64,000 nt of DNA from Owenia fusiformis (taxonomy: Eukaryota > Annelida > Polychaeta > Sabellida > Oweniidae). The stretch is taken from NCBI GenBank assembly GCA_903813345.2, contig CAIIXF020000012.1:31564501-31628500 (forward strand). The letters run 5' to 3'. This document shows, in pieces, positions 30,559-63,765 of this stretch. A program made the translations under genes and the position numbers. Numbering within the stretch: position 1 is the first letter of the stretch; each line of letters starts with the position of its first letter. The notes beneath the pieces were generated by a model, which did not search any database, was not told the DNA's origin, and was given only the letters and a program-made list of their open reading frames with translations.

Positions 30559-33500
30559 TCATTCTGCTCTCCATATAAGGTAGTTGGCCGGGTCAACCAA
30601 AGGGTGAGCTGTTAGCATCAGAACTGCATGTATCAAACCCGTCATTCTGTAGCGCAGACAAGAAATCTCTGGAAAAGATGGAAACAAATAATGATTGATT
30701 TATAAATATGATGCAATATACATAACCACATGTATTTAAATCTTATATTTCTCTCCCAAATTATCTTTTAAACCAAAAATTTCAAAATATCAAAACTAAA
30801 AAATTCAGTCCCATATTATCTTTGAGATATAGATGACACTCTAAAGAACTAGTACTTATTAGATCAGGTGTCGTAAGGAGACAACTGCTGGGAATTGGAC
30901 GATCATTTTGAAATCTTATATTGGATAGGTAAAGTTGGTGAAATTCATAGTATACCCTTACCCTAACTGCTCTCTCTTTCTACTAGGATCTTGTAATGGT
31001 ATTACATCAGGCACCCCAGAGTATCTCGTAGGTTTGCCCAAGCCTAGGATTTAACAAATATAACTAACTATACAAATTGTGATACAGTAGGACCTGTACA
31101 ATCTGAACATGGCTGGGACTGGCCAAAAGTGTTCGAATTGGCAGGTGTTCATACTTCAAGATCTCTTTAACATGGCTGCATGGAAGTCTATGGTAGATTA
31201 AAACATGGGACCAAAATAGGCTAGTTTTCGTATTGAAAGGTATTATGATTAGAGTGTTGTTCGGATACATATGTTTTACTGTATCTTTTCATCCTCAATA
31301 TTATCATTAATTCATTTTTTCATTATATCACTGATAATTATTTTTATATAGATCTAGACCTCTGTTTTTGTTCATGCAATTAATAAATCAAATATTCCAG
31401 GAATGTAATGAAATGAGAATCCATCTTCCACTCTCTGTGCAACAAGGAAATATGAGATTTTCTTGGTTCATAGAGTTTGGGAATGGGTGAATGTTCATTT
31501 CACTGCTATATGTTCCATTGCCTGTGTATCAATATGTAATACCTAAAGGTTTATACTCGTCCTTGTATTTCAAATCTTCAGCTGTGGTTTCCTCCAACAT
31601 TCTTGTAATTCTCTCTAACTGCTTTTCACTCCTCGACAGTTGTATGGGATGAATATTTGCTGCATTTTGATTGGCTTGTTCTTCATTGTCCTTTGAGGCT
31701 ATTTCGAGTATTTTTTCTATACCAACCTGGAACCAAACACCATATGAACACTCTATATGCTACCATAAATCTATGCTTCAAAAATAATCACCCTATTTGT
31801 ACCGTTATCTTAATTCTAAAATTCCCAGACCATAATAGAAATGAATAATTGAAATAGCCAGTCAAAAATGGAATGTATGACTTCTTATGTTATTGAGGAA
31901 ATTCTAAAATGACTTGTTTGACATTGACAAACCTGGAATACATGACATCATAAATACATGACATCATGTTAATATTCGGATGATGCAACATATGTTAGCA
32001 ATTTTTTATGCACTCATCAGTACTGTTAATAATCCAATGACAATTTGATGTATTTTGAACAAGCTACGTGTACTTTCTCATTGGTAATTTGGAAACACTG
32101 TGACTAATACATTGCATGTGTTCGTGAACACTGAAAATGAAACAGCCTATTAGATTTCATTATGATACATTGTACAAAATTGAAAATGTACACTACTTTT
32201 TAAATGAATTGATATCTCCAAATTACCTCTTTGTTAAGTTTCTGTTTAGCAGGTCTGAGGTTGTGAAAATCTGTTGAGTTGAGGAACTCAAGGGCAGCTT
32301 GAAATGTCACCAGTATGTAACTAAAATGAAAGCCATAAATTCATCAATTTACTTATCAATGCATTAATTAATAAGATACACAGTGATAAATACCACACTT
32401 TTTATCAAAAATTAAAAATACATGTATGTAACCACCATGCAATTTAATCCACATGCTAAAACCTTATAAGATCTCTTAAGAATGACAAAAACCTAGTGTG
32501 TCACTCAAAGCGAGAACAATTAAAATGTTATAAGTGTCCACTTCCAACTATGTAACTATAACAACAATAAACAAACGTAGAGTATTTACTATGAGGGCCA
32601 GTTATTTTTATCAAAACAACACTTTTGGAGCAACAATGTCGAATTTTGACTAGATATTAAAAACTTAACCAATATTATAAAAATGACAATTGTCAATTTT
32701 ATTTTCTAGCAATTACTCATTTAAAATTATTCATTTTTATCTAAAATCTAATCTGTAACAATGCTTTTCCACTTACCCAAATTCATCTTTACTGGAGTCA
32801 GACCAGTGAAAGTGCTGTATATAGTATAAGTTACTTTCAAGATACGGACATTTTGACTGTATTATCAAAGAGACTAGAATAGGAAGCAGGTCATCTGATG
32901 TCAGACATAGCTGTTCTGGAATATAGATAGAAAATATTACATCAAGCATGGGAGTGTAATGCTTGACTTGACTTTTTTCCAAACAATGTATTTTCAATGA
33001 CTGTAATAAATTATACATATATAAGTACATGTACTACCTACTACACATATACAATGTACAGTACAATGTACAGTTTATATTACCTTTATCAGTTGGATTT
33101 TGTCGTTCTTCCACAGCTGTATTTACCCCCTCTGTCAACCTATCCTGAAAATATATTAACACACAAACAAATAATAAACACTACTTAGAGTAAAATAGAG
33201 TAACAACTAGGAATAAAACAAGACTCATTGTGATAAATATCACACTTAAACAAGACTCATTGTAATAAATATCACACTTAAGAAAGACTCACTGTGATAA
33301 ATATCACACTTAAACAAGACTCGCTGTTATAAATGTCACACTTAGACAAGATTCACTGTGATAAATATCACACTTAAACAAGATTCACTGTGATAAATAT
33401 CAGACTTAAACAAGACACATTGTGATAAATATCACACTTAAACAAGATTCATTGTAATAAATATCACACTTAAACAAGATTCACTGTGATAAATATCACA

Positions 33501-36500
33501 CTTAAACAAGATTCACTGTGATAAATATCACACTTAAACAAGATTCACTGTGATAAATATCACACTTAAACAAGATTCACTGTGATAAATATCACACTTA
33601 AACAAGATTCACTGTGATAGATATCACACTTAAACAAGACTCACTGTGATAAATATAACACTTAAACAAGATTCATTGTAATAAATATCACACTTAAACA
33701 AGATTCACTGTGATAAATATCACACTTAAACAAGACTCATTGTAATAAATATCATACTTAAACAAGACTCACTATAATAAATATCACATTTAAACAAGAC
33801 TCATTGTAATAAATATCACACTTAAGAAAGACTCACTGTGATTAATATCACACTTAAACAAGACTCGCTGTTATAAATGTCACACTTAGACAAGACTCAC
33901 TGTAATAAATATCACACTTAAACAAGATTCACTATAATAAATATCACATTTAAACAAGACTCATTGTGATAAATATCACACTTAAGCAAGACTCATTGTA
34001 ATAAATATCACACTTAAGAAAGACTCACTGTGATTAATATCACACTTAAACAAGACTCGCTGTTATAAATGTCACACTTAGACAAGACTCACTGTAATAA
34101 ATATCATACTTAAACAAGACTCACTATAATAAATATCATACTTAAACAATACTCATTGTGATAAATATCACACTTAAACAAGACACATTGTGATAAATAT
34201 CACACTTAAACAAGACTCACTGTAATAAATATCACACTTAAACAAGACTCACTGTAATAAATATCATACTTAAACAAGACTCACTATAATAAATATCACA
34301 TTTAAACAAGACTCATTGTGATAAATATCACACTTAAGCAAGACTCATTGTAATAAATATCACACTGAAACAAGACACATTGTAATAAATATCACACTTA
34401 AGAAAGACTCATTGTGATTAATATCATACTTTAACAAGACTCACTGTTATAAATATCATACTTAAACAATACTCATTGTGATAAATATCTCACTTAAAGA
34501 AGACTCGTTGTAATAAATATCACACTTAAACAAGACTCACTGTTATAAATATCTCACTTAAACAAGACACATTGTGATAAATATCACACTTAAACAAGAC
34601 GCACTGTAATAAATATCACACTTAAACAAGACTCATTGTAATAAATATCACACTTAAACAAGACTCACTGTAATAAATATCACACTTAAACAAGACTCAT
34701 TGTAATAAATATCACACTTAAACAAGACTCACTGTAATAAATATTACACTTGAACAAGACTCACTGTAATAAATATCACACTGAAACAAGACACATTGTG
34801 ATTATTATCACATTTAAACAAGACACATTGTAATAAATATCAAACTTAAGAAAGACTCATTGTGATTAATATCATACTTAAACAAGACTCACTGTTATAA
34901 ATATCATACTTAAACAAGACTCATTGTAAAAAATATCATACTTATTAAAACAAGACTCACTGTGATAAATATCTCACTTAAACAAGACTCGCTGTGATAA
35001 ATATCACACTTAAACAAGACTCGCTGTGATAAATATCACACTTAAACAAGACTCACTGTGATAAATATCACACGTAAACAAGACTCACTGTGATAAATAT
35101 CACACTTAAACAAGACTCACTGTGATAAATATCACACTTTTTATCGAAGAATTCAAATTGGCTACCAAGTCACTTGTATTTACCCAGCAGAATCCTTAAT
35201 CAAAATCTTATCAAAACAATGGCACTAGTTTGCTCTTGCATTTGTAATATTTTCAAGTTGAACAGGTAAGCCGTTTTCCTTGAATTTTAATGACAAGATT
35301 TATGTGGTGTGATATTTATCACAGTGAGTCTTGTTTAAGTGTGATATTTATCACAGTGAGTCTTGTTTATGTGTGATATTTATCATAGTGAGTCTTGATT
35401 AAGTGTGATATTTATCACAGCGAGTCTTGTTTAAGTGAGATATTTATCACAGTGAGTCTTGTTTAAGTGTGATATTTATCACAGTGAGTCTTGTTTAAGT
35501 GTGATATTTATCACAGTGAGTCTTGTTTAAGTGTGATATTTATCACAGTAAGTCTTGTTTAAGTGTGATATTTATCACAGTGAGTCTTGTTTAAGTGTGA
35601 TATTTATCACAGTGAGTCTTGTTTAAGTGTGATATTTATCACAGTGAGTCTTGTTTAAGTGTGATATTTATCAACAATGGCAACAGTATATTGAACTTTT
35701 TTGCGAGGTTTTTATTTAATTTAAAAATGATAAACACAATGCAATTTTTTACTTATCCTTATCTCAGTTGAACAAAGAGTTGATAGTACAGTAAAATCTG
35801 TCAAAGAAGAACACCTCAGGTACCTCTGAAAAGTGTTTCACTTGGAAGGTGTTCTACTTATAGAGATTCATTTAGCATTAAGTAAGTTGGTATTGGGCCT
35901 CTGAAAAGTGTTCCAATAACAGAGGTGTTCTTTTTCTCTAGGTGTTCCATGTTACAGGTTTCACTGTACAAAGATTTCAAAAGTCGAAGATAAAGCAGTA
36001 TGTTAAAGGTCAAGGTTTAGGGGTGTATTCACTTTAAGTTTAAGAATATAAAATGGCATCTGCAACACCTGATGATGGGAAACAACCGATATTTTCTAGA
36101 CCATCTCCTCAAAATGAGCAAACGAACACTTCAGAGAAGCAAATTGAGAGGTTAACCAATTTTGTTAACTATGTCTCTCACCATGTCGACATAAGGAATA
36201 GATACACTCCTGAAGAACTTGAACTCCAAACATCGTACATTGAAAATCTGATTCAGTCTATCTGTAAAGATGTTGGTATAAGAAATCCAGCCTTAATTGT
36301 GAAAGAGATACTACACAGAGGAAGCTACTATGATAGAACTAAGATATGGAAACCTAATGAGTATGATTTCCTTGCAATTCTAGCCTTGTTTGATAGTGAA
36401 GCCATTGAGGTGAAGGTGGTGAGTGATGGGTGTGAGTATACCGGACAGGGGTACTATTACATCAAAGTTAAACAGCAGCCTTTAAAACATAACCTACCTG

Positions 36501-39500: not shown

Positions 39501-42500
39501 TTATTCAGGTTGATGACCCCCAAACAGGAAGGTAACAGGACAACTCATCCCCAAGACAACTCATCCCCAAGACAACTCATCCCCAAGACATCTCATCCCA
39601 AGACAACTCATCCCCAAGACAACTCATCCCCAAGACATCTCATCCCAAGACAACTCATCCCCAAGACATCTCATCCCAAGACAACTCATCCCAAGACATC
39701 TCATCCCAAGACATCTCATCCCAAGACAACTCATCCCAAGACATCTCATCCCAAGACATCTCATCCCAAGACAACTCATCCCAAGACAACTCATCCCCAA
39801 GACATCTCATCCCAAGACAACTCATCCCCAAGACATCTCATCCCAAGACAACTCATCCCAAGACATCTCATCCCAAGACATCTCATCCCAAGACAACTCA
39901 TCCCAAGACATCTCATCCCAAGACATCTCATCCCAAGACAACTCATCCCAAGACATCTCATCCCAAGACAACTCATCCCAAGACAACTCATCCCCAAGAC
40001 ATCTCATCCCAAGACAACTCATCCCAAGACATCTCATCCCAAGACATCTCATCCCAAGACAACTCATCCCCAAGACATCTCATCCCAAGACAACTCATCC
40101 CAAGACATCTCATCCCAAGACATCTCATCCCAAGACAACTCATCCCAAGACATCTCATCCCAAGACAACTCATCCCCAAGACAACTCTTCCCAAGACATC
40201 TCATCCCAAGACATCTCATCCCAAGACATCTCATCCCAAGACAACTCATCCCAAGACATCTCATCCCAAGACAACTCATCCCCAAGACAACTCTTCCCAA
40301 CTTGAAATATAACGTAATTTTATACAATAAATTTCAACCTTTGAAAGAGTATTTGAATATTGAATATTTTAGAGATTTTAGCAGTAAGTACATTGTGTTT
40401 GACCCTGGAATATCTTTTGTATTTTGAGTTAGTTTAGTCTAGCTTTAGTTAATTTTATTGATCGATTGGGATAAAGATAAACATGTTCAAATTAATATAT
40501 ACTTTGATTATTAAATCAAAGATCATCAAAGGTGTCAAATTAGGATTAACGCAATAAGAATGTATTATCTGGGGTATTATCAGAATAATTCCCCCAGATT
40601 AATTCAGTCTTTGTTTTAAAATATTTTGCTTAATTCCAATATGTCATATTTGGCTTATTCTTTAATAAGATTTCCAATTTTAAACTTTCAGAATCATGAT
40701 GATTGAATTTGGAAATTATGTCTTATACCGGGACGTAAAAGTAGGACATAACTTTCAAGTGCCATTTCGAAATGCTAAAAATTATCAATACTTAGATTGA
40801 GAGTATAATCAAATATCAATTTGTAATCGTAAAAATAAAAAAATGATATATATAATATAGAGGACTTATTAAAGTATACTAGTGGGATGAGATGTCTTGG
40901 GATGAGTTGTCTTGGGATGAGATGTCTTGGGATGAGATGTCTTGGGATGAGTTGTCTTAGGGATGACTTGTCTTGGGATGAGTTGTCTTAGGGATGACTT
41001 GTCTTGGGATGAGTTGTCTTGGGATGAGTTGTCTAGAAACCAACAGGAACCACTGTAACTAGTGATGCGGATGACGAGTTATGATGTACAATGAAAGATC
41101 CACCGCAAGGGTTGCAAGATTTTGAAGAGCTGTATCGCTAGTTCTAGACTTTTATGATACTGATGAAAAACAATAAGTAAATGAAAGAATAGTGTTTGTC
41201 AAAGTACATTTCTTATCAGCTTCTGTAAAACACTTAACTCTCTGAAAAGAAATACTCGACACGAAAACGTATCCGTTTTCGTAACTCGCTTCATGAGTTC
41301 CTCCACAGTGAGACAATAGGTTTTCAATACTGGGAGGTCCAGTATTGTAAAATGTAAAATAAAATATATAACATAAGTAGTGATTCATAATAAATTTCAG
41401 AGAGTTTAAATCATTAAACCATACAAAATATAAGCATGATAATATTTGAGGCAGGGCACAGTAAAAGGGTCTTATCACAGATTTTTTCTATATTTTGATT
41501 TTTTTGTTTATCTTAAAAAGCAGAGTCATGGCTTATGTCTTAACAATTTTCCTCGCAGATATAGACCTAAAAAGACAGATTAGAATTTAGCACATTTTCC
41601 TCGTAATCTTAGGCGCATATTGTGGCTCTGTAGCACAATTTTCCTCGTAATCTTAGGCGCATATTGTGGCTCTGTAGCACAATTTTAACCTTAATAATAA
41701 GACCCGTTTTCCTGTGTTGAGGCTCTTTTATGCAAGCCAAGTGTTCTTATTACTTACAATAGTTGTCTTTAGAGCCATGAGTTTCTCCAAGGGCGTGGTC
41801 AAGTTATCTAGGTTGGCCAGTTCTACAACCTGCAAATATACAGTAAAATCTTTATAGTGGAACACCTCTGCAAGTGCATCACCTACATAAGTGGAACACC
41901 TCTACATTATGTAAAACACATCTTCAAGTGGAACACCTCCATACGTGGAACACTTTTGGGTGCCCTGGAATTCATTTACTTTAAGCAAAATGAACTTATG
42001 TAAGTGGAACATCTCTGAAGTGGAACACTATTTTGAGGTTCCAAATGTGTGTTCCACTTACAAGGTTTTACTGTACATAACATTCACACATTGTAATTTT
42101 AATCTATAACATTATAAAATTCTTCAATGGTTTTTGTTATTGATTAACTAAAAAGATCAAATAAAACAATACAGAACTTCAGAAGTTCAAAACAATGTTG
42201 AGTTAGTATAGTCAAGAGCAGGCCTGTAGCTCGGGCGAACCCCCCCCCTGGCCAAAAATTCTTTCAAAATCATGCAGTTTTTCACCATTTTGAGCACTTC
42301 TCAAGTGATTTTAGCCATATTTGGGCCAAAATTGTCAAATGTGAACCCCCTGGAAATTTTTGAAAACTGAACCCCTCCTTTGGCAAATCCTGCCTACGGG
42401 CCTGAAGAGTATCTAAAAATGGCACAACTTGCAGTTGGGTGGGTCTGTCTTGTTGCCAACAGCAGTGAAAGAGTGAAGTTAATTTTATAATACTTTAACC

Positions 42501-60442: not shown

Positions 60443-63400
60443 AGTCTCAAAGATGTCTAAGAGGGCAGCTCCACCAGATAGTCCCCCTGCATCAGGCTCA
60501 GGGGGTCCACCTCCAGCCAAAAAGTCTGTGACACAGTTTGCTCCAATACAACTGGGACCCATTGCATCATTGGTAAGTACACTGACACCTCTTCACTCTT
60601 CATTCTTATTTTTAGCCAGAATCCCCCAGATAGCCAAATTGTACTTAATGTTGTTCATAATTAGCTCATTTTAGATATACCTAGCTATTGTCATCTTAAA
60701 GCTTGGCCTATAATACCTGTTTGGCGATTGGCAAGCCATTTGATGTTAAATCAGATTTATGAAATAAATAGATTACCATATAAAAAAAAATTGGTAAGTA
60801 CATATTGTAGAAAGGCTTTCATAAGTAGCAGATAACATGTCATTTTCTCTGGTCTCCAGTTGTTAGATTGGCTATACCAATTGAAAAGGATTTGATACTT
60901 AATTTTCCGACTCTGCGGGGAGTTGCTTTTTCTGTAGTTTTGAATCACATAAATTGTAATGTCACACACAGGAAACAAAAATTGCCTTTTGTTCTATGTT
61001 AAAATTTGGCTATTAATGTCCAAAGAGGACACAGCCAAGGAAAAATTGATTAAATAAAAAAAATGTAAACACCATCAAATACTTGGATACAGACTTTTGT
61101 ATGAAAGAATCAAAGCTGAAAATCGAATGAAGCAATTCCTGTTAAATATTCCCAGAGACTAAAATCAATTAATTTTCATTTTACAACTTGCAGGAGGAGA
61201 TGGATATGAAAGTTCTCCAGTTCCAGAACAAGAAATTAGTTGAAAGAATCGAACACAGAAAAAAAGCTGAGGAGGAACTAAGAAAAAGGTAAGAAGATAG
61301 TAACATAGGGTCAATTTGATCACTAGAAATTGAACCAGAATTGAATTAATATAGAACAATCTTTGCAACTCAAGAGCTGAGCACATTGCAACCCTATAGG
61401 GATTTTTTAAAACATTGACAATTTTCATATTTAATGTTTTAGAATGATTATATAAATAAATCAATTTTTGAAAATTTTATGGAGTGGTACTTTGTATTGT
61501 ATAACATTCTCCATTTTCCAGAATTGAACAACTGGAGCAGAGACAAACAACTGATGATGCAGTACTTTGTATTGTAAAAAGACTTTATGGCTAAAAGGGT
61601 GTCCATAGAGTCTCTTTACAATGATTTACATTGACTTTGTATTGTAAAGAGACTTTATGGCAACCCTGTATAACATATCTCCATTTTTTAGAATTGAACA
61701 ACTGGAGCAGAGACAAACAACTGATGATGTAGTACTTTGTATTGTAAAAAGACTTTATGGCTAAAAGGGTGTCCATAGAGTCTCTTTACAATGATTTACA
61801 TTGACTTTGTATTGTAAAGAGACTTTATGGCAACCCTGTATAACATATCTCCATTTTTTAGAATTGAACAACTGGAGCAGAGACAAACAACTGATGATGT
61901 AGTACTTTGTATTGTAAAAAGACTTTATGGCTAAAAGGGTGTCCATAGAGTCTCTTTACAATGATTTACATTGACTTTGTATTGTAAAGAGACTTTATGG
62001 CAACCCTGTATAACATATCTCCATTTTTTAGAATTGAACAACTGGAGCAGAGACAAACAACTGATGATGCAGTACTTTGTATTGTTAACCGATATTGGAA
62101 TCAATTTGATGAAGATGTCAGGGTTTTACTTGAGAGATTTGACACTGAAACTATCACTGAAGAGGATGAAGGTAGATAATTTGAATACTTATTATAGAAT
62201 CTGATTTCTTGAAAAATATATTTTAACTTCCCCATACAACTTTGGTTTCACACTGAATCTAGTATATATTTTCAGTCCTGAGGTTTCAATTACTTTAGTG
62301 ATTATATGCATGGATCAGTAGATAGATGCTGATTTGACTGAAATAAGGCAAAATACCACATTGAAATAAATGGTAGCCTAATTTGGAATATTTCAAAACA
62401 ATTGTTAAATAAACACTAATTTGAAAATCTGGTCCAAAATCATACACAGTAATGGGAACTTCCAATGTTTTATTTCAGGGCCCAGTGAAAGTATCACATC
62501 ATTTCTTAACCAGCTGTCTTCCTGTATTCCAATGTTATATTTCAGGGCCCAGTGAAAGCATTACATCATTTCTGAACCAGCTGTCTTCCTGTATTCCAAT
62601 GTTATATTTCAGGGCCCAGTGAAAGCATTACATCATTTCTGAACCAGCTGTCTTCCTGTATTCCAATGTTATATTTCAGGGCCCAGTGAAAGCATTACAT
62701 CATTTCTGAACCAGCTGTCTTCCTGTATTCCAATGTTATATTTCAGAACCCAGTGAAAGCATCACATCATTTCTGAACCAGCTGTCTTCCTGTATTCCAA
62801 TGTTATATTTCAGGACCCAGTGAAAGCATCACATCATTTCTGAACCAGCTGTCTTCCTGTATTCCAATGTTATATTTCAGGACCCAGTGAAAGCATCACA
62901 TCATTTCTGAACCAGCTGTCTTCCTGTATTCCAATGTTATATTTCAGGACCCAGTGAAAGCATCACATCATTTCTGAACCAGCTGTCTTCCTGTATTCCA
63001 ATGTTATATTTCAGGACCCAGTGAAAGCATCACATCATTTCTGAACCAGCTTTCTTCTTGGGACAAATCAGAGATTGACCTACGTCTTCACCAAAGGGTG
63101 GACTTCTCCATGAGGGCCATGGGAAAGATCCTCCAGTGTTACGACAGGCTGCAACAACGTCATGAAAAGCTGATTAAATCAATCAAGGTCACTGAAGAGA
63201 AAGTGGATGGTGAGATCACTCCACCTCCCACTGTCAAAGAGGGGGATAAAGAAGGTACTTTCCCATGTTCATTGAATGTAACCCAAAACTTTTAATTAGA
63301 CAGCTCTTATAGAGCCACTGGGAAAAGTTGGTGACAACCAAAACCAGTGTTCTGGAAAAGCTAAGGTTTCAAATTTGCACACATTACGCTGATAAAATGA

Positions 63401-63765
63401 TGAGAAAACTTTGTCCAGCAATAATTTAGGCTTAAGATCAAATATGAATGTTTTGAATAGTTCAGACACTGGAAAGTTTATTCATCATTATGTGGTCGGA
63501 TTGCTTTGATAGAAATAACTTAATATTATTTAATATACTTTTCCAATTGTGTTGTGACATTTCTGTTTCAGACGACAAAAAGGATGATGGTGATGAAGCA
63601 GAAAAGAAGGATGACGATGAAAAAGAAGAGGAAGAGAAGCGACCAGAAACACCATCTATTGGTGAGGTTACTAAACAGGAGATCATGACGTTAACTGAGG
63701 AGAATCGTCGTCTCCAGAATTTGTGTAATCAGCTTCATGAAAAACATCACAACACAAGTCTTGAG
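60443..63765 (+). CDS. RNF20: BRE1 E3 ubiquitin ligase (RNF20/RNF40), N-terminal exons; continues beyond the window
   Basis: Coding exons 60453-60572, 61194-61288, 62032-62171, 63015-63254 and 63572-63765 join in phase. The start ([21 protein letters not shown]) resembles the RNF20/RNF40 N-terminus. [20 protein letters not shown] + [18 protein letters not shown] is the hallmark block (human ERRQATDDASLLIVNRYW), followed by [15 protein letters not shown], a [16 protein letters not shown] coiled coil, a Lys/Glu/Asp-rich linker ([15 protein letters not shown]) and [20 protein letters not shown]. In known family members the protein forms nuclear coiled-coil complexes and, through a C-terminal RING not in this window, monoubiquitinates histone H2B with RAD6. 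Exons 3 and 4 are each preceded by tandem copies of their own 3' splice site. Confidence 0.92.
61522..62031 (+). repeat. 170-bp tandem copies of BRE1 exon 3 acceptor and exon start (3 decoys)
   Basis: Acceptor-exon junctions lie at 61522, 61692, 61862 and 62032, exactly 170 bp apart. Each copy holds ttccag| or tttttag| followed by aattgaacaactggagcaga and the first ~52 exon bases up to tttgtatt. The first three then read gtaaaaagactttatggcta, a piece with inverted partner tctctttacaat, instead of the true exon gttaaccgatattgg. Read as exon, the decoys meet TAA eight codons after TTDD. Copies 2 and 3 have gatgatgt where copies 1 and 4 have gatgatgc. Confidence 0.95.
62479..63014 (+). repeat. 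67-bp tandem copies of BRE1 exon 4 acceptor and exon start (8 decoys)
   Basis: Acceptors (atatttcag|G) occur at 62479, 62546, 62613, 62680, 62747, 62814, 62881, 62948 and 63015, exactly 67 bp apart. Each unit contains ccagtgaaagcatcacatca, tttctgaaccagctgtcttc and ctgtattccaatgttatatt, so the exon start runs straight into the next polypyrimidine-AG. Units 1-4 begin ggccc, unit 5 aaccc and units 6-9 gaccc. Since 67 is not a multiple of 3 and an in-frame TGA (cagtga) appears in the next unit, use of any decoy truncates the protein. Confidence 0.97.

Follow-up and report, generated by a model that had tools for sequence, protein, structure and literature searches.

Tandem repeats that lie across intron–exon boundaries have been named mirages in amphioxus, where the available parts of two papers describe them in Adh3, in the globin genes BflGb6 and BflGb9, in TnC and in PGBD5, on the acceptor or the donor side, with units of 10-72 bp in Adh3 and 150-160 bp in the globins (PMC3087553, PMC3902484). 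The same passages report that haplotypes differ in array length and that units are homogenised inside a cluster but divergent at its ends, and the data on Adh3, together with RT-PCR on the globins, suggest that these repeats leave regular splicing undisturbed (PMC3087553, PMC3902484). In a published model mirage units become new exons and introns, and intron gain by tandem genomic duplication is mentioned in the same paper (PMC3087553). As far as the accessible parts of these sources go, we recognised such arrays in the open-access literature as described in amphioxus only (PMC3087553, PMC3902484).

Both of the arrays that we describe here belong to this known kind, mirages, and the same genome has larger ones. 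As in the mirages of those passages, each array spans an intron–exon boundary and repeats the splice signals in every unit; unlike them, the arrays are in an annelid, Owenia fusiformis, and occupy two neighbouring acceptors of one gene. Elsewhere in the genome, three matches above the cut-off to Pfam Eryth_link_C, an annelid linker family, fall within 15 kb on C6. The stretch of DNA that was analysed, 64,000 nucleotides long, is referred to below as the window. The gene runs in 18 exons from 60453 to 73265 (window coordinates), its 3′ part lying past the window's end, and encodes 943 amino acids without an internal stop. The original prediction had taken it for BRE1 (RNF20/RNF40), and this identity is confirmed by similarity over the whole length, with the BRE1B and BRE1A chains of the PDB matched at E 7.8e-253 and 1.5e-242 in three stretches each, and by a C-terminal RING domain (PF00097) above the Pfam cut-off. 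Searching the genome with a 507-residue part of the BRE1 protein gave 11 matches, namely nine exons of this gene and two weak hits outside it (E 9.9e-6 and 8.9e-5), for the most part to the RING region; a second copy of BRE1 was not found by this search. The end of the last exon (73206-73296) has an 81% identical copy just downstream, at 73384-73474, and a 24-bp piece of exon 11 (67533-67556) recurs in the intron directly upstream, at 67383-67406 (window coordinates throughout). The features of the gene and of its two arrays are as follows.

60453-60572, forward strand: BRE1 exon 1, with the start codon
61194-61288, forward strand: BRE1 exon 2
61498-62085, forward strand: acceptor array of exon 3 with 3.5 copies of a 170-bp period and four acceptors, at 61522, 61692, 61862 and 62032 (Tandem Repeats Finder and reading frame)
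61596-61675, no strand assigned: self-complementary MITE-like stretch of about 80 bp inside the 170-bp unit, with further copies 170 and 340 bp downstream
62032-62171, forward strand: BRE1 exon 3, from the productive acceptor of the 170-bp array
62460-63057, forward strand: acceptor array of exon 4, nine units of 67 bp in which an intron end with its AG is followed by about 46 bases of exon sequence (Tandem Repeats Finder and comparison of units)
62479-63014, forward strand: eight decoy acceptors with exon fragments, each leading to a predicted truncated product of 143 amino acids (reading frame)
63015-63254, forward strand: BRE1 exon 4, from the sole productive acceptor among nine
63572-63765, forward strand: BRE1 exon 5
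beyond the window, forward strand: BRE1 exons 6-18, up to the RING domain and the stop codon

For the exon 4 array (62460-63057), Tandem Repeats Finder gives a period of 67 with 8.9 copies, 98% matches and 0% indels, at a score of 1112. The first bases on the exon side are exactly 67 bp apart (62479, 62546, 62613, 62680, 62747, 62814, 62881, 62948 and 63015), and AG is intact in all nine units, which is the geometry of nine indel-free units that had been claimed. The original prediction had further argued that any upstream acceptor brings a stop and that the last acceptor alone is productive, and both points stand: among the nine, translation from 63015 alone gives the 943-residue protein, and from every upstream acceptor an in-frame TGA is met in the next unit. 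The predicted product is 143 amino acids in eight of eight cases, including those with n = 3 and n = 6 extra units, where 67n is a multiple of three, because the unit that follows the acceptor used is then read in frame with its TGA. What had been said about 67n and the shift of frame is correct, though the stop does not depend on it. Use of acceptor 1 would stretch exon 4 to 776 nt instead of 240. At tandem acceptors of the NAGNAG type, several AGs compete for one donor; unlike these, the BRE1 units are as long as 67 or 170 bp, and in each array every acceptor but one leads to a truncated protein.

The exon 3 array had been overlooked. It too spans the intron–exon boundary, with AG intact in four of four units, and acceptors 61522, 61692 and 61862 each lead to a predicted truncated product of 95 residues (3/3), so that a premature stop is predicted from 11 of 11 upstream acceptors when the eight of exon 4 are included. 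Were its first acceptor used, exon 3 would be 650 nt long instead of 140. Each array was translated with the other set to its productive acceptor, and since both of these separate tests favour the last acceptor, the pair last–last is expected to be the only one of the 4 x 9 = 36 acceptor pairs to give a full-length protein. It follows from the reading frame that 62032 and 63015 would be the authentic acceptors.

Further unlike the mirages in the amphioxus passages available to us, one of the BRE1 units contains a MITE-like element. The stretch 61596-61675 matches many places in the genome, and frequently a single place is matched on both strands. There are at least 71 such matches, a lower bound as 40 of the 88 candidates were scored; three are the array itself, and the other 68 are 72-90% identical. 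The string ACTTTGTATTGT is common to exon 3 and to the MITE-like element, and the exon 3 array may have its origin in recombination between these short homologous stretches.

What, then, distinguishes a productive acceptor from its neighbours? An acceptor weight matrix was built from 77 acceptors (15 from BRE1 and 62 from the sample of other genes described below, with arrays left out), whose median score is 10.8 and 5th percentile 6.3. On this scale the productive acceptor of exon 4 scores 11.6 and its eight decoys 10.3-12.3, while the productive acceptor of exon 3 scores 9.1 and the three upstream of it 8.0, 9.1 and 9.1. The decoys of both arrays (8.0-12.3) thus fall inside the range of the 77 training acceptors. 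Equal scores are no proof of equal strength, because the matrix is rough: most of its training sites were called automatically, and an AG that does not belong to the array, at 61443, reaches 10.2 and so exceeds exon 3's own 9.1. A search 15-60 nt before each of the nine acceptors of exon 4 gave a single match to yUnAy, TTAAC ahead of acceptor 2, a decoy, and a reading of each unit for a branch point gave nothing clear. The productive acceptor of exon 4 is without a clear local mark; what differs is position, in that the last one alone adjoins the remainder of the exon.

Intron gain by tandem genomic duplication starts with a tandem duplication inside a gene and needs a usable donor in the unit. 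Unlike the arrangement expected of that process, the 67-bp array has no donor that scores in the training range: the best of its 35 GT sites reaches 0.86 (62491, in unit 1) and the next -0.89, against 1.98 for the lowest of 102 training donors. Mini-exons inside the exon 4 array were rejected because of these scores. More broadly, that the upstream units of the BRE1 arrays are mini-exons or recursive splice sites, with intron gain in progress, would agree with the published model, as its available part describes it, in which mirage units turn into exons and introns (PMC3087553); with the best GT of the array below every training donor, we regard this as extremely improbable.

The copies of the exon 4 unit are not uniformly alike. 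Units 2-4 are mutually identical, as are units 6-8, from which unit 5 departs by a single base. Divergence is greatest in the edge units 1 and 9, which differ from the other units at 4-8 sites. A homogenised interior, divergent edges and an authentic copy that by reading frame is the exon-proximal one are all shared with amphioxus mirages as those passages describe them. The array region has one matching place in the 498-Mb assembly, so that no second haplotype copy was seen there, although such a match is no substitute for reads. Long runs of near-identical tandem copies pose difficulties for assembly, and an artefact of assembly or polymerase is the obvious worry. We consider it very improbable, however, given that the variant blocks are ordered along the array, that BRE1 has a second, unrelated array and that other genes have arrays with other periods. 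Amphioxus PGBD5 offers a precedent, in that the accessible part of the report has re-sequencing speaking against assembly error (PMC3902484).

To place BRE1 in its genome we sampled exons from matches to three protein families, Cpn60_TCP1 (49 used of 60 matches), tRNA-synt_1 (20 of 27) and Myosin_head (60 of 92). These 129 exons were picked by coordinates alone, as those lying close together, and arrays were counted by self-comparison and by eye, a procedure different from the Tandem Repeats Finder count given below. Acceptor arrays were present in six of the 129, which come from CCT, tRNA-synthetase and myosin genes.

C11:35576738: nine acceptors, 83-89 bp spacing
C11:134865: four acceptors, 96 bp; the upstream frame stays open
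C8:21853866: two acceptors, 86 bp
C11:11020623 (L033, around 1855-2848): tRNA-synthetase exon with the KMSKS motif, 24 acceptors (23 extra, AG intact), 40 bp
C1:57373730: four acceptors, 61 bp
C4:24501404: four acceptors, about 259 bp

In five of these six arrays, translation from the upstream acceptors examined runs into a stop, the exception being the 96-bp array; at C11:35576738, C11:134865 and C11:11020623 this refers to the nearest and the first upstream copy. With up to 24 acceptors in one array, this genome also differs from what the amphioxus passages describe. Arrays at the donor end were present in four of the 129 exons, with two borderline cases outside this count.

C1:58969963: donor array, two copies
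C11:142062: donor array, three copies, GT lost in one
C11:140077 (L012): donor array in a CCT gene, 53-bp unit with exon end and donor, 20 consecutive copies that each keep GT, and another four some 1 kb further on
C10:13377174: donor-end array, no second donor copy kept
C10:4787212: borderline donor case, one degenerate copy with GT at +367
C4:17297275: borderline donor case, 34-bp array starting at the donor, which recurs within it

Acceptor arrays are thus not special to BRE1. The ten counted arrays are not independent, because three of them sit in one region (C11:134-142 kb), and the two of BRE1's 17 acceptors that carry arrays are not significantly more than the 6/129 of the sample (Fisher p 0.23). 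In a replication on helicases, which took the best 30 of 85 listed Helicase_C matches in loci of about 3 kb and used strand-neutral self-comparison only, none of the 30 had a tandem copy of the match or of its 80-base flanks; two of these loci (L058 and L059) look like mutual copies and two others (L061 and L063) overlap. Arrays cover 4.65% of 83,970 windows in the helicase loci. Given the 0/30, the rate of arrays varies, and that of the first sample may be an overestimate; over both sets together, acceptor arrays were found in 6/159 exons (95% interval 1.4-8.0%). Among the myosin matches, C9:37986009-37994334 holds twelve consecutive same-strand matches to profile positions of about 18-84 of the myosin head, as if it contained a dozen alternative copies of a heavy-chain exon.

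We also asked how often arrays lie at exon ends compared with elsewhere. Tandem Repeats Finder places 7 of the 118 called acceptors and 5 of the 121 called donors inside arrays, 12/239 together, against 10.35% of 113,353 non-exonic 20-nt windows from the sampled Cpn60_TCP1, tRNA-synt_1 and Myosin_head loci. It is important to read the counts at exon ends as resting on automatic calls. At C4:17297275 the acceptor, in a 21-bp array, is a doubtful call; the donor called at C11:135225-135701 stems from a match reading through an acceptor array and was not counted separately; the donor array at C11:140077 is absent from the count, having no called donor, with the true donor 24 bases inside the match; and the automatic acceptor is one unit upstream of the productive one at C1:57373730 and about 90 bases too far upstream at C4:24501404. 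We ourselves counted 10 of 258 ends inside arrays (12 of 258 with the borderline donors), which is below 10.35% (binomial p ~0.0002 assuming independence, an assumption that fails here). Targeting of arrays to exon ends was rejected, as the ends lie in arrays less often than non-exonic windows do. The arrays look like a general minisatellite load that is thinned at exon ends.

It is against this background that possible roles of the BRE1 arrays have to be weighed. Splicing choices that introduce early stops are the basis of poison exons and of splicing coupled to nonsense-mediated decay, and the upstream BRE1 acceptors resemble these in bringing early stops. The original prediction had accordingly raised a control of BRE1 dose, in which a regulated share of transcripts takes upstream acceptors and the early stop, through nonsense-mediated decay, sets the level of BRE1. 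The main point in its favour is that premature stops are predicted from all eight upstream acceptors of exon 4 and all three of exon 3; that decoys score similarly to the productive site and that the search found no second BRE1 also count for it. Poison exons differ, however, in that arrays of the BRE1 type also occur in unrelated genes, where they lie at acceptors and donors alike, and identical interior copies fit a recent expansion rather than a conserved switch. With no enrichment at exon ends, and with amphioxus mirages reported, in the parts of the papers available, not to disturb splicing (PMC3087553, PMC3902484), the proposal is left unsupported, and we consider dose control quite unlikely. 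Alternatively, the upstream acceptors could be used at an appreciable but unregulated rate, so that the arrays are a mildly deleterious load. The similar acceptor scores would allow this, and arrays are rarer at exon ends than in non-exonic windows, as weak purging would give. Nevertheless, young arrays were common enough among the first 129 exons to suggest that their cost is small, and leaky splicing of this kind seems to us unlikely.

The original prediction had also offered a neutral young expansion, and of the readings considered this fits best, given that unrelated genes have arrays of the same sort and that exon ends are not enriched for them. We infer use, choice, growth and neutrality alike in proposing that both BRE1 arrays are probably mirage minisatellites, largely neutral, at which the exon-proximal acceptor is chosen by exon definition. 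A tandem duplication would have happened to span an intron–exon boundary, the array would have grown by unequal exchange or slippage, and the upstream exon would be joined to the exon-proximal acceptor while the upstream copies behave as intron. The exon-proximal acceptor would be taken because the last copy alone then has the rest of the exon and a donor. Exon definition is expected with a layout of short exons and longer introns such as that of BRE1, where the medians are 156.5 nt for exons and 449 nt for introns. Against a choice of the exon-proximal acceptor, the rule of the 'first AG after the branch point' would favour the upstream acceptors. If BRE1 is needed, however, the productive pair would have to be used at some rate, because an intact protein of 943 amino acids needs both 62032 and 63015 and no second BRE1 was found.

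One feature of the exon 4 array is perhaps left unexplained by a neutral origin. Six of its seven exon-side variants are synonymous, where a fraction of 0.25-0.36 is expected (p 0.004 at 0.30, 0.009 at 0.35), and a purely neutral array does not predict such a run. In other arrays the synonymous variants number 0/1, 0/3, 5/10 and 0/3, two arrays being free of variants and C4:24501404 left out of the test. That units were copied out of a selected coding copy, as the 6/7 had suggested, was unrepeated in the six other arrays, and we have not used this interpretation.

A wider proposition is that mirages recur in this annelid genome, with a few per cent of splice sites in arrays, up to two dozen near-identical sites in each, and the exon-proximal one reliably taken. 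We put this forward tentatively, as a conjecture that falls somewhat short of an even chance. If it is true, the genome is a large natural experiment in which position relative to the exon can override both local strength and 5′-to-3′ order, and cephalochordates are not the sole group in which mirages arose or have persisted. With near-identical acceptors in one transcript, position can be told apart from local splice-site strength: BRE1 by itself has 36 acceptor pairs of which one would be productive, and the variants between units let some of the acceptors be distinguished in reads. The arrays of 24 acceptors and 20 donors elsewhere suggest that RNA-seq of the species could test exon-proximal choice directly.

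Other repeats were noticed in the window. Two minisatellite pairs, at 33216-35139 with 35307-35673 and at 39539-40300 with 40883-41034, have units of 32 bp and 15 bp, each repeated on the opposite strand in the second array of its pair. Between 45080 and 51391, open frames with near-identical translations, a cysteine-rich CXC-like motif among them, are found again about 3.4 kb away on both strands, and from its sequence this region looks like a duplicated transposon.
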